DNA of 64,000 nucleotides from Pseudodesulfovibrio nedwellii (GTDB taxonomy: Bacteria > Desulfobacterota > Desulfovibrionia > Desulfovibrionales > Desulfovibrionaceae). The translations under genes were made by a program, and so were the position numbers. Of the stretch, positions 9,899-15,359 are shown one piece after another (within the stretch, counting starts at the first letter, position 1; the number at the start of each line of letters is the position of its first letter). Location of the stretch: NCBI RefSeq assembly GCF_027923765.1, contig NZ_AP026709.1:2475501-2539500 (forward strand), given 5' to 3'. The notes under the pieces are model-generated. The model was not told where the DNA came from, searched no databases, and saw only the letters and a program-made list of their open reading frames with translations.

Positions 9899-12484
9899 TC
9901 ACACAGTATCAGTCACACCCCGCTTTGATGCGTCATGCCTTACGTCCACGGCCAGCACGCCAAGAACCTCCCCCTCTCCATTCCTCAAAGGCGTGGACAC
10001 TGTCAGGCAATAGTCATCAATGACTTTTGAGTGATATATATTCGACACATATGCCTCACCTGTACGCAAGGGTTCATGAAACCAGTCACGGTGAGACCAG
10101 TCTGTTCCGACGCCACCCTTGAGTGTTCCAATTGGAGAATCGTGTGCCAAGGCACAATCCGTCACCTGAATACCATTCGTATCTGTGATCCAGGCTATCT
10201 CCAGGCTCGGATTCTCCCGCACAGCCCGGTGAAGAATATCCTGTTGTTGTAAGCAATCAAAACTGGCCAGCAACGGCTCCCGAGCCAACTCAGCAACTTC
10301 TTCCTGCACTGCGCCTTCACCCAAAAGCATGAACAGTCCATAGAGTTTGGACAGCGTCTCAATCTGGTCGGTCAATTCGGCGATGGCTCCTCCTGTTTCA
10401 CCCACCGCCTGAGCGGTTTTGCTGGAAACAGCATCAACTTCCGAAACAGCTCTATTAATTTCTTCTCCTGCGGCTGATTGCTGACTGCTTGCGGCAGCGA
10501 TAGCCTCCACCTGTTGTGTTGTGGCCTCGAAAAACTCCATGATTTCATTCAACGCATCGCCGGACTCTCCTGCCAACCCATTGGCCGAATCCACTTTTTC
10601 AGCGGCCATGTCCATGCCTCGAATGTTCTCTTGAACATCGGCCTGAATGTCGGCAATGGACCCGCCGACTTCACGGGTGGCGTCCATGGTTTTCTCGGCC
10701 AATTTGCGTACCTCATCCGCGACCACGGCAAACCCCCGTCCAGCCTCACCGGCCCGTGCCGCCTCAATGGCCGCATTCAATGCCAACAGGTTGGTTTGAT
10801 CAGCAATGTCGGAAATAACCGTCATCACCTTATCAATGGAACTGGCCTTGGCTCCAAGGTTTGCGACTTTGACCTTAAGCTGCTCGGTAATGGTATGCAC
10901 ATCGCCAATGGAATGAACAGTCTTGCGAACCACTTCAGCCCCTTCACGGGCACGATTATGCGCCAATTCGGCGGCCTTGGACGCGTCCTCGGCATTTCCC
11001 GCCACTTCACGGATGGAACCTGCCAGTTGTTCCATGGATGTCGCGGTCTGTTCCACGCGATGACTCAGGCTGTTGGCTCCTTCCAAAATCCTGTCGGATT
11101 CACTATTCACCACCCCCGAAGCCTCTTTCATACCGGTAACAACTACTTCGAGCATACCGGCGGCCTGAAGCATACCTTCACGCTGTGCTTTGGCCGCATC
11201 GGTCCGGGCTTGCCGTTCGCTTTCGGCCTGCACCACGGCGGCTTCTGACTCTACAGCACGAGACTGGGCCAACTCGGAAGCGACTTCAGCTTCCTGCATC
11301 TTATCACCCAAAGTATGCACCATGCATTCAATCGCTTCCTGAACCTGCTTCAATTCACCCTTAAATTCCCCTGATGCCACGGCATCCAGCTCTCCCTCAG
11401 CCACCTTACCCGCGTATTCACGAAGCCCATTGAGAGGACGGAGCAGGGCGCAACGGAGAAAAATCAATGTCACAATGAGGATGCCTACCGCAGATGAACC
11501 AGCCACAATAATGGCCGCATTTTCAAGATTGCTGATTGAGGCCAAGGCTTCGGAAGCATCTATTTTTACGACCAATCCCCAAACAGTGTCACCCACCGGG
11601 ACGGGCGCATAGCCTGCCAGAACTTCATGACCGCGATAATCTATCGCATCCATACTGCCTTTTTCGCCTGCCAACCCCTTACGCGCAGGTAACGTATCCA
11701 TGGCACCACGCCGAGGAGACGCAAAGGAGGCCTCAACGCTGTATTGTTCAACATCAGAATAGAGATCGGACCGCATGAGCCTGTCCTGACCAACCAGATA
11801 GGCTTCACCGGTCTTTCCCATGCCAGCCCGAGGACTCATGACCGCATTCACGCTTTCTACAGGAATACGGAGCATGGCCACCCCTTCAATCTCTTTTCCA
11901 TACCGCCTGATCGGAGCAGCGATAAACGCACAAGGCTGACGTTCCAAAGGAGAATAGGGGTGGAAGTCGACAAAGACCGTTTCTCCAGCGAGAGCACGTT
12001 TCCAAGCCTTCTGGAGCCGACTTCTGGAAAGGTGACCTTTGGCAATATCTTCGCCAAGCTCACTGCCACGGGTAACAGAAAAAACAATGTGTCCTGTATC
12101 ATCCACTATCAGGGCATCGGCATATCCACGAACTTTAATCCAAGGAAGAAACTCGGCAGACACCCGTTTTAAAGCATGGGCATAATCCTCGTTGCTGATA
12201 TCCATCTTCCGCCCAGGCTTGGCTTCATAAAAAACGATGTCCCGCAACCGGACCAATGCGCTGTAAACGTATCGGGCCTCGGAATACATGGTGATGTCCT
12301 TGCTCCAAGTCTCTGTCAATACATACAAATCATGAAGCTTGGCCTCCTTAACCGAAGCAAGCTTGCTTCTGGCCTGATCCTTCAGACTCCCGGACGCGGT
12401 ATACAGACTGTATCCAACCATGCCTCCTAAGGGCAGAATGCCTATAAGCAAGCAGAAAACGAGCATTTTCACACTGAGTTTCAT
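9899..12484 (-). CDS. Methyl-accepting chemotaxis protein with C-terminal Cache-like domain
   Basis: This 861-aa receptor has a first membrane helix at about 7-28 and a periplasmic dCache-type sensor to about 320. A second helix follows ([20 protein letters not shown]), then HAMP and the signalling domain, whose tip region includes [20 protein letters not shown]. Beyond the usual end there are about 130 more residues. They read as a second PDC/Cache-like unit ([58 protein letters not shown]). That domain should lie in the cytoplasm, so the receptor may sense on both sides of the membrane. The ATG at 12484 has GGAGAG upstream. It is monocistronic. Confidence 0.93.
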
Positions 12485-12628: not shown

Positions 12629-12651
12629 AATCATTTCAGTTTGAAATGATT
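12629..12651. terminator. Hairpin at the end of the DAC/small membrane protein operon
   Basis: AATCATTTCA-GTT-TGAAATGATT is a perfect 10-bp stem overlapping the stop of the 12651 gene. No T-run follows on the minus strand, so it is at best an imperfect terminator; an mRNA 3'-stabilising role or an operator is equally possible. Confidence 0.4.
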
Positions 12652-12881
12652 CAGGACGAAAAGAATATGGCATAGAAAACAGCCATGCCCCAGACAAGAC
12701 AACAGAGACAACTTGTGGCGGGAATCATCCACCATTTCAATTGCACAGCCTTGCCGCGGAATTTGAAGGAACCACAACAGCGAAACAACGATAAGATCAT
12801 CTGCATAAGCAGGCCGGAGACGGCCAATGCAGGCAAGGCAAGGACCCAGAAAATTGGGTCGGATATCCACATACCGGTCAT
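12651..12881 (-). CDS. Small two-helix membrane protein downstream of the DAC gene
   Basis: This 76-aa hydrophobic protein has two predicted membrane helices (about 7-31 and 48-73) separated by a basic loop (CGSFKFRGKAVQLKWW), and four cysteines. It is not a recognised family. Its ATG at 12881 lies 4 nt after the stop of the diadenylate-cyclase-like gene, so the two are almost certainly cotranscribed. ATG at 12872 is an alternative start. It could anchor, or be regulated by, the neighbouring nucleotide enzyme, which is inference from position only. Confidence 0.65.
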   Translation of the reverse strand: MTGMWISDPIFWVLALPALAVSGLLMQMILSLFRCCGSFKFRGKAVQLKWWMIPATSCLCCLVWGMAVFYAIFFSS

Positions 12882-12885
12882 CAGG

Positions 12886-14310
12886 TCAGCTCATCACCCA
12901 TTCTGCCAACAGGGGAGGGCGGGCAAAACCACGAATCTGCTGAAAATGACATAAAGCAGTCAGTTCCACACCATTTTTAATAATGGAAACAGGCCGGTCG
13001 GACGAAACCACAACCACCACGATATCCTCATGTTCAGCCGTGAACCTCAATGCCGAGTTAAACCGCGCACCACGCGCCCTGTTCTCACCGGGAACGGATT
13101 GGCCATCCATAAGACAACCAAAGCCGTAGAGTTTCAGATCTCGTCCAATATGCAGTGCGCCGTCCAATTTTGCCAGTGAACAGGCGAGCTTGAGCTGACT
13201 GCTTTCCTGAAGGTCCAACGGCTTTTCAAAGTGCTGACCCGCTGTCTTCAAAAAGTTTGTACCCGCGTCTACGATCAACGTGCACCCATGCTTGCGGTCA
13301 CGCACCCGGTTAACCATATGCGAAATGATATGGAGCAGGCCGTGTTGCTCCTCCATGTTCAAATCGGTCTCCAACAATTGTTCTTCAAGCTGAACCAGAT
13401 TCGCCTTGAGATTGGAAGAATGGAAACGACCATCAGAAAAACTGCACACCAGATCATCCTTGATCCACAAAAATCCATGGGTGCCGCTGAATTGTGCTGC
13501 CAGATACGCTCCCGGCATGGGACCAATAGCTATGCCAAGCACGGTGGAACCGTCCGAGACCAAAACGCGCCCGGAAAATTCAACGGCCTGTAGCAGCTTA
13601 CGCACATGTTTGGTGTCGGAAAGACTTGGCTGTTCATGCAAAGGGAATCGGCAGATCATGCGTACCTGATCGAGCTGACTCGGCTCAACTACCACGATAC
13701 GACCTCTGGGCCATGCACCTTCTTCCTTGGTGCCGGACACGCCCATAATAGCGTCCAAAAACGGGTAAACACGTATCTGCGTATCCAACCACCCCAAACG
13801 ACTGCGTTCATCCACAATAAAATTCCGAATGGCATGATTGGCACAATGCTGCAACATGAACCCGGCTATATCCAAACCCATGACATTGCACGTTTCAAAA
13901 TTCTGAGAAACCAGCTCTGCGGCATACTCCAACCAATTTGCGGTCGGTCCCAACGAACACATATCCGGATGTTCCTCGGTAAACCACATTTGATAATGCA
14001 TAGGACGAGAACGTGCTCCCAGAGTGATGATACCTGACAGGTCCAGTCCGGCCTTGTCAGAATCAATAATCTCCAATTCCTGACCTTCCGGCGGTTCTCC
14101 CCGCCATTTATTGGAATACAGATAGTAATCCCGAAGCTTAGGTTCGTGACCTTCCAGCAGATTTTGCGGATCACATATACGAGGAGGAGCGTCACCGCTC
14201 TGGGCGTACACAACTGCGGCTCGACTTGGGGGTGAAAAATGCGACAACCCTTCGCGAAGTCCGTCCAAAATATGGAATATACAGATATTCTCGAATGATG
14301 CTTCAGGCAT
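12886..14310 (-). CDS. DisA_N/DAC domain protein, putative diadenylate cyclase
   Basis: This 474-aa protein has an N-terminal region of about 340 residues without a clear domain, then a DAC (DisA_N) domain. That domain includes LAKLDGALHIG with the DGA motif at 383-385, LYGFGCLMDG, and RGARFNSALRF at 413-423, then VVVVVSSDRP. DAC domains condense two ATP into cyclic di-AMP. The second catalytic motif is normally RHR; here it is RFN. Activity is therefore uncertain, although uncharacterised relatives have similar RGAR-x-NSA forms. No DisA helix-hairpin-helix is present. The ATG at 14310 is preferred over the TTG at 14322 because GGAGTC at 14315-14320 gives proper spacing. Confidence 0.82.
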   Translation of the reverse strand: MPEASFENICIFHILDGLREGLSHFSPPSRAAVVYAQSGDAPPRICDPQNLLEGHEPKLRDYYLYSNKWRGEPPEGQELEIIDSDKAGLDLSGIITLGARSRPMHYQMWFTEEHPDMCSLGPTANWLEYAAELVSQNFETCNVMGLDIAGFMLQHCANHAIRNFIVDERSRLGWLDTQIRVYPFLDAIMGVSGTKEEGAWPRGRIVVVEPSQLDQVRMICRFPLHEQPSLSDTKHVRKLLQAVEFSGRVLVSDGSTVLGIAIGPMPGAYLAAQFSGTHGFLWIKDDLVCSFSDGRFHSSNLKANLVQLEEQLLETDLNMEEQHGLLHIISHMVNRVRDRKHGCTLIVDAGTNFLKTAGQHFEKPLDLQESSQLKLACSLAKLDGALHIGRDLKLYGFGCLMDGQSVPGENRARGARFNSALRFTAEHEDIVVVVVSSDRPVSIIKNGVELTALCHFQQIRGFARPPLLAEWVMS

Positions 14311-14423: not shown

Positions 14424-15215
14424 TTACCCTTTTACAGCGATAAGAACATCAGCAAGTTCGCGGATCACGCCTTCGCCGCCACGAGCTGTTGTAATATAGT
14501 CCGCTAGGGCGAGAATGGAGGGATGCGCATCGGATGGTGCAACTTTGAACCCTGCCAAAGCCATACCAGCGGCATCATTGACATCATTCCCGACAAATAA
14601 AACTTCAGCCACGGATATGGACCGCTTGTCCGCCAACTCAAGCAGGGCGGATGCCTTGTCACGGATGCCATGAATGGCTTCCAGCTTAATTTTGTCGGCT
14701 CTGGCTTTCACCACCGGATTGACTTCCGTGCTCAAAATAACCTGTTCAAGACCGAGCTTACGGATCATGCCAACTCCCATGCCATCGCCACGATTTGCCC
14801 GGATATATTCCCGGCCATCCTGATCTACGGACACCGTGTTGTCTGTCATGACTCCATCAAAATCATACACCACGAGCTTGACTTTATCGGCACCGGGCAA
14901 ACCGCGCTGGGTCAAGGCGATCATCTCGCCATCCAAACCAAGATAAAGCGGCTTGTCGCCCATAAGTTTCTCGGCACGCCCTCCGCCGTTGTCCAGAATG
15001 GCAGCCACAGCTTGTGTCACATCCGGCACCTCAATGGTCACAATGACACACCCGCCGGCCGTGGTATCTTTGGCCTCCACAAGACGCAGGCATTGCCCAA
15101 ACGCCCCCATAAGCAAGGCGTCCCAAGCGAGATTGAAGCCAAGGGCCTTCTTATAGAATGCGGAAGATTTTTCGATATTCCTGACCAACAGGGTGACGGG
15201 AGGATAGGCTGTCAT
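14424..15215 (-). CDS. VOC/glyoxalase-KdsC (HAD phosphatase) fusion
   Basis: This 263-aa protein joins two domains. Residues 1-105 read as a VOC (glyoxalase/dioxygenase) fold: VTLLVRNIEKSSAFYKKALGF, then IVTIEVPDVTQAVAAILDNGG. Residues 112-263 are a KdsC-type HAD phosphatase with DFDGVMTDN (Asp118, Asp120), Ser162 in LSTE, the lysine in RADKIK and GNDVNDAAG near 209. KdsC removes phosphate from KDO-8-phosphate for lipopolysaccharide; similar HAD domains act on related sugar acids. The usual VOC metal ligands are not obvious. The start at 15215 is supported by AAGGAG; the longer frame to 15347 lacks a ribosome binding site. The substrate may differ from KDO-8-P. Confidence 0.83.
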   Translation of the reverse strand: MTAYPPVTLLVRNIEKSSAFYKKALGFNLAWDALLMGAFGQCLRLVEAKDTTAGGCVIVTIEVPDVTQAVAAILDNGGGRAEKLMGDKPLYLGLDGEMIALTQRGLPGADKVKLVVYDFDGVMTDNTVSVDQDGREYIRANRGDGMGVGMIRKLGLEQVILSTEVNPVVKARADKIKLEAIHGIRDKASALLELADKRSISVAEVLFVGNDVNDAAGMALAGFKVAPSDAHPSILALADYITTARGGEGVIRELADVLIAVKG

Positions 15216-15310
15216 CGTGGCTCCTTTGGATTCGTTGTTTGCGCAACAGACTACCTTGCTCGCCCCGATGGTGCAACCGCATGCTGAATAGGACCATCCC
15301 GCATACTGTT

Positions 15311-15359
15311 TAAAAAAATCGACCCCTCGCACACTGTGTTTACACACTTGGCAAGGGGC
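15311..15359 (-). terminator. Terminator of the RND efflux operon
   Basis: On the minus strand CCCCTTGC pairs with GCGAGGGG (8 bp, one wobble) around a 20-nt loop that contains an inner GTGT/ACAC. The sequence then runs TCGATTTTTTT. It lies about 100 nt past the RND stop. Confidence 0.65.

Follow-up and report, generated by a model that had tools for sequence, protein, structure and literature searches.

The locus and its genes

The window, by which we mean the whole stretch of 64,000 nucleotides of Pseudodesulfovibrio nedwellii DNA that was analysed, carries on its minus strand a gene for a protein with a DAC domain and, behind it, a gene for a small membrane protein (Table 1). The reading frame of the DAC protein runs to a stop at 12886 and may open either at TTG 14322 or at ATG 14310. 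The alignments of its relatives begin at the Met of the ATG, thus the protein most likely has 474 amino acids. Residue numbers in this text count from the TTG (a 478-residue ORF), which makes this Met residue 5. The membrane ORF starts 4 nt after the DAC stop and encodes two hydrophobic segments, as an earlier sequence-only reading of this DNA had described. Scans for promoters and terminators at the locus gave results at about the level of chance.

Table 1. Features of the locus, in positions of the window
Feature	Positions	Strand	Basis
DACND-DACNH-DAC protein, 474 amino acids (extends to TTG 14322)	12886..14310	-	ORF and Pfam
DACND domain (PF21749), residues 9-178	13789..14298	-	Pfam, E 7e-70, 234 bits
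DACNH domain (PF21750), residues 186-293	13444..13767	-	Pfam, E 4e-29, 101 bits
DAC domain (PF02457), residues 337-451	12970..13314	-	Pfam, 50.9 bits
DGA motif, residues 387-389	13156..13164	-	Alignment of 71 sequences
RGARFNSA, residues 417-424, family signature replacing GTRHRAA	13051..13074	-	Alignments
Membrane protein, 76 amino acids, two-helix, genus-restricted family	12651..12881	-	No Pfam or NCBIfam match
Chemoreceptor	9899..12484	-	
KdsC-type HAD phosphatase	14424..15347	-	

The Pfam search returned PF21749, PF21750 and PF02457 in the order typical of the family, all above their gathering cut-offs, which are 27 bits for each of the three. The DAC domain named by the sequence-only reading is therefore present, but the 340 residues in front of it, which had been taken for a region with no known fold, match DACND and DACNH and are thus two described domains. 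Of the flanking genes, the chemoreceptor has an N-terminal dCache domain, a HAMP and a signalling domain and then a PDC-like stretch (MCP-like_PDC_1, residues 792-849), which is an unusual order. The KdsC-type phosphatase, whose gene lies immediately upstream of that for the DAC protein in the genus, has a glyoxalase-like N-terminal region (a weak match).

A fixed motif in place of RHR

The DAC domain keeps DGA, and its GARFNSA aligns with the GTRHRAA of the CdaA encoded in the same genome, so that it lacks the RHR that serves as a criterion for canonical cyclases, just as had been read from the sequence. We aligned 71 sequences with identities down to 37%; they come from this family and from others in the phylum. 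In all 71 of them D387, G388, D406, G407, E413, R417, G418, A419, R420, N422, S423, R426 and D442 are invariant, position 421 is F or Y throughout, and the A of DGA, whose D and G never vary, is present in 69. The best 30 PF02457 matches that could be read in the genomes of the family, own CdaA included, all have G[TS]RH and 29 of them plainly GTRHRAA, and a DACNV-type DAC from the same phylum reads GSRHRS. In two genomes a DACND-DACNH-DAC gene with GAR[FY]NS occurs together with a DAC gene of the DACNV type that has GSRHR. A pocket motif that is invariant across 71 relatives is not a product of decay. Judged from these alignments, the motif is a fixed signature of its own DAC clade, and it is altered only when compared with DisA or CdaA.

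M. tuberculosis DacA with AAA in place of RHR no longer bound ATP or made c-di-AMP (PMC3328451), and the same exchange in CdaS put an end to its c-di-AMP synthesis (PMC4568413). Given that RHR is essential in canonical enzymes, the GAR[FY]NS enzymes would have to bind the triphosphate in another way, make something else, or only bind nucleotides. Our literature search found no measured product for any GAR[FY]NS protein. The last of these options would make the protein a catalytically dead receiver, which binds ATP or a cyclic dinucleotide such as the c-di-AMP made by CdaA and signals through DACNH and DACND or through the membrane partner. It draws on the loss of the H and the second R of the essential RHR (here F/Y and N), on the active-looking CdaA in the same genome and on an adjoining HD-GYP-like protein which, in 16 of 36 genus genomes, is itself degenerate. 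Against it stand the invariance of DGA and of the polar pocket positions across several families, and of the motif across phyla, as well as a DS-2 relative that needs its predicted catalytic residues (PMC13092281). We regard such a receiver as possible but doubtful. The suggestion in the sequence-only reading of a nucleotide sensor that lost catalysis is likewise made less probable by the strict invariance of the pocket motif.

The second option is an active cyclase whose changed pocket (GAR[FY]NS for RHR) sets another substrate or product, for instance a mixed-base, pyrimidine-containing or linear dinucleotide. The changed residues do sit in the ATP-binding motif, and CD-NTase and phospholipase genes adjoin that of the DS-2 relative, a setting in which another type of dinucleotide might serve a purpose. 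On its DGA side, however, the pocket has not changed, and we hold this to be quite unlikely.

Structural models

The full-length AlphaFold model, made from a 49-sequence alignment, has a mean pLDDT of 89.8 and a pTM of 0.81. Its residues 308-458 match the DAC domains of CdaA, DacM and DisA, and the best fold match is the CdaA-AMP complex 8c4n (Z 16.4, rmsd 2.4 Å, 130 residues aligned). The structure prediction that had been proposed as a check on the DAC protein thus finds the DAC fold in place. A search of the family sequence profile against PDB sequences gave nothing at E 0.01, which leaves fold comparison as the only decisive approach. The model of DACND resembles mixed alpha-beta folds (the GAF domain of DosS, a LuxR-type sensor and a longin-like fold) at Z 6.4-7.3, which is within the noise band of the tool.

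More was seen when DACNH was modelled alone (45 sequences, pLDDT 85.9). In a second look with VIA-align, DAC domains fill the first 38 places, with Z from 9.2 down to 6.6, and the next entry has Z 2.4. Superposition on 2fb5 gives an rmsd of 2.9 Å over 103 residues. The order of elements (H E E H E E) agrees with that of DAC; at the place where DAC next has the helix that bears the RHR-type motif, the DACNH model lacks this helix and has two strands. The 50 best Foldseek matches of DACNH include no DAC, and the resemblance comes from the VIA-align second look only. An hhalign comparison of DACNH with DAC was weak, with a score of 19.5 in the expected register, and 3 of 150 column-shuffled controls scored higher, thus sequence alone gives no proof of a duplication. 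From the models we find it quite likely that DACNH has the DAC fold and is a degenerate DAC domain, and we would put rather less confidence in DACNH and DAC being an internal duplication. The Pfam annotation of DACNH as a "probable sensor domain" would need revision if DACNH is a dead DAC domain. Its likeness to DAC domains also suggests a tandem of pseudo-DAC and DAC throughout the clade. Since the formation of c-di-AMP requires two DAC domains placed head to head (PMC8573169), such a tandem, if the models are right, could gate or complete the active dimer.

Distribution and neighbouring genes

The DACND-DACNH-DAC gene is present in all 36 genomes of the genus, where it belongs to the stable chromosome, in 104 of the 288 genomes and 19 of the 44 genera of the family, and in 24 of 395 sampled genomes of the phylum. 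A canonical CdaA is encoded at another locus of the same genome, and two DAC genes are found in 35 of the 36 genus genomes. With at least one DAC gene in 258 of 285 family genomes, c-di-AMP synthases are ordinary here and the window gene is an additional one. The earlier remark that c-di-AMP signalling is little described in sulfate reducers should thus not be taken to mean that the synthases are rare. A PgpH-type phosphodiesterase was looked for in the own genome and gave no PF07698 match; DHH-DHHA1 candidates are present at other loci.

The gene of the membrane protein lies just downstream of the DAC gene in 36/36 genus genomes, and the core of the protein is strongly conserved (PALA-SG-L-QM--SLF-CC--F---G----L-WWMIP). 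The genes around the pair are less constant. Among 33 genus loci tested, many of them with flanks of only 1.5 kb, a KdsC-like gene is upstream in about two thirds and a chemoreceptor downstream in about half. The adjacency of the DAC and membrane genes persists where the flanking genes differ, which makes a functional link within the genus plausible. A search of 43 other genera of the family found no credible match to the membrane protein, and by this measure it does not accompany this cyclase family in general. The description of the cyclase as membrane-linked is based on adjacency in the one genus. Among the 46 loci compared across genera we found no conserved partner gene, whether effector or phosphodiesterase.

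A search for linked phosphodiesterases in relatives had been proposed as well. Directly behind the membrane gene, 16 of the 36 genus genomes have a gene of the HD_5 type, which is HD-GYP-like. In five more the orthologue lies elsewhere; one of these is the own genome, where it is unlinked (C1:1083860-1084879, 73% identity). In the remaining 15 nothing of comparable score turned up. Active HD-GYP enzymes carry HDxGK. All 19 aligned orthologues have [YF]D[IL]GM in its place and keep HHExx[DN]GxGYP. Going by these motifs the protein is probably not a working phosphodiesterase, and it may be a receiver.

Relation to an anti-phage DAC

The motif reaches well beyond the phylum. A plasmid search gave one match, in Priestia, which was the starting point of the link to DS-2: this plasmid DAC (DACNH and DAC, 25% identity) reads SRGARFNSALR. 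Relatives with RG[AS]R[FY]NS are found on plasmids of Citrobacter, Gluconobacter and Dyadobacter and on three viral contigs, and the relative from Phycisphaera has the variant RGARLNAT. The search for relatives in the phages collection found none. The DAC of the Citrobacter plasmid passes the DS2_3_antiphage model (NCBIfam NF053872) with 804 bits against a cut-off of 630, and its gene comes after phospholipase (patatin) and CD-NTase genes that pass the DS2_1 and DS2_2 models. By blastn this DAC gene matches one chromosomal place in 18 E. coli genomes. In the one of these that was inspected, patatin and nucleotidyltransferase genes again precede it, and the motif is SRGSRYNSG. In E. coli AR_0128 (NZ_CP021722.1), patatin, nucleotidyltransferase and DAC genes form a cluster of the DS-2 type that directly adjoins another CBASS operon, one with dncV and a cGAMP-activated phospholipase. 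According to the DefensePredictor paper (PMC13092281), mutating two predicted catalytic residues of the DS-2 DAC eliminated defence. In a tree of DAC domains, the family of the window protein groups with the motif-bearing proteins of plasmids, viral contigs and E. coli with modest support (83/78) and is itself a strongly supported clade (96/100).

It could then be asked whether the window gene is an anti-phage component like DS-2. The two share the motif, and residues 188-448 of the window protein are remotely homologous to DS2_3 (E 5e-18), but it reaches only 64.8 bits with NF053872, under the curated cut-off of 630. The phospholipase and CD-NTase of CBASS are absent beside it, and the neighbours are instead the KdsC-like HAD protein, an RND pump and the chemoreceptor. 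No PADLOC model matches at the window gene, and sequence clustering of the 46 loci recognised no recurrent CBASS or other defence-gene neighbour. With no CBASS gene, no PADLOC match and no neighbour conserved across genera, we do not count the gene among those of phage defence, and its presence in every genus genome, which is not a patchy distribution, also speaks against this role, which we consider highly improbable.

Proposed function

The reading that we somewhat favour is that of an accessory dinucleotide cyclase which has the DAC fold and a family-specific pocket, is gated by a sensor and would most likely make c-di-AMP. Two things lead us to judge activity more likely: the DS-2 mutants, and an invariant set that takes in the Asp of DGA as well as two further arginines on the flanks of the motif. 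In this cyclase DACND, going by its Pfam naming and the architecture, would sense an intracellular ligand or a partner, and DACNH, which by fold comparison is an apparently catalytically dead DAC, would position or gate the catalytic DAC domain. Two nucleotides would be joined where a pair of catalytic DAC faces come together head to head. The DGA residue D387 would act as in other DACs, and R417, R420, N422 and R426 would replace the RHR phosphate clamp; the conservation of these residues is observed and the roles are our assignment. The small membrane protein and, in some species, the degenerate HD-GYP-like protein would serve as anchor or receiver, a role suggested by their adjacent genes. 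The whole would work beside the canonical CdaA of the same genome.

A more speculative version can be put forward for the clade as a whole, which would include DS-2 and the chromosomal enzyme of the Desulfovibrio type. Its proteins would be internal pseudo-heterodimers, in which the degenerate DACNH pairs with DAC to give an asymmetric two-site cyclase whose changed RHR pocket yields a product other than symmetric c-di-AMP. The chromosomal enzyme would, in the genus, signal to the membrane protein and the dead HD-GYP receiver. We think this unlikely, and prefer the accessory cyclase described above.

RHR has been held essential, and yet a clade spread over several phyla, one enzyme of which is needed for phage defence, has an equally invariant substitute. 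Two readings follow: the definition of DAC catalysis may be too narrow, or the molecule that this clade makes or senses may be another one. A chromosomal and apparently non-defence member, present in every genome of the genus beside a canonical CdaA, would be a clean system in which to distinguish the two.

Comparison with known systems

The window protein is a member of a described architecture, and a real and conserved one. The DACND/DACNH diadenylate cyclases (PF21749, PF21750) have the identical three domains in the same order, and the motif is uniform in the family. The families presumably stem from Galperin 2023 ("All DACs in a row", J Bacteriol 205:e0002323), which PMC13092281 cites; the names DACND, DACNH and DACNV, searched for in open papers, gave nothing relevant. 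With this architecture already in Pfam and the motif also present in the anti-phage DS-2 DAC, the earlier proposal of a new subtype was overstated. The protein in itself does not differ from these cyclases, and what we did not find described are the membrane partner at the level of the genus and the degenerate HD-GYP neighbour.

CdaA/DacA and DisA share with it the DAC fold and the DGA motif. They differ in that RHR is replaced in the window protein, which has a soluble DACND-DACNH N-terminus rather than membrane helices or the C-terminal domains of DisA. Archaeal DacZ/CdaZ, which has a PK_C-like N-terminal domain (PMC6741144), likewise combines a soluble N-terminal regulatory region with a C-terminal DAC. 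In our protein the N-terminal region has no Pfam PK_C match, and the DACNH model matches DAC domains, which make up the top 38, with no pyruvate-kinase chain among the fold matches listed, a listing that does not prove such a fold absent.

The DS-2 DAC is homologous over DACNH and DAC, carries the same RG[AS]R[FY]NS motif and belongs to the same broader tree clade. It has another N-terminus, a C-terminal extension and adjoining CBASS genes, and the window protein falls far below the cut-off of its DS2_3 model. Compared with the Pfam descriptions and with open papers, two points appear to be new: the motif as a clade signature common to the phage-defence DAC and, from the models, the likeness of DACNH to DAC. 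New as well are the membrane and HD-GYP-like neighbours specific to the genus.
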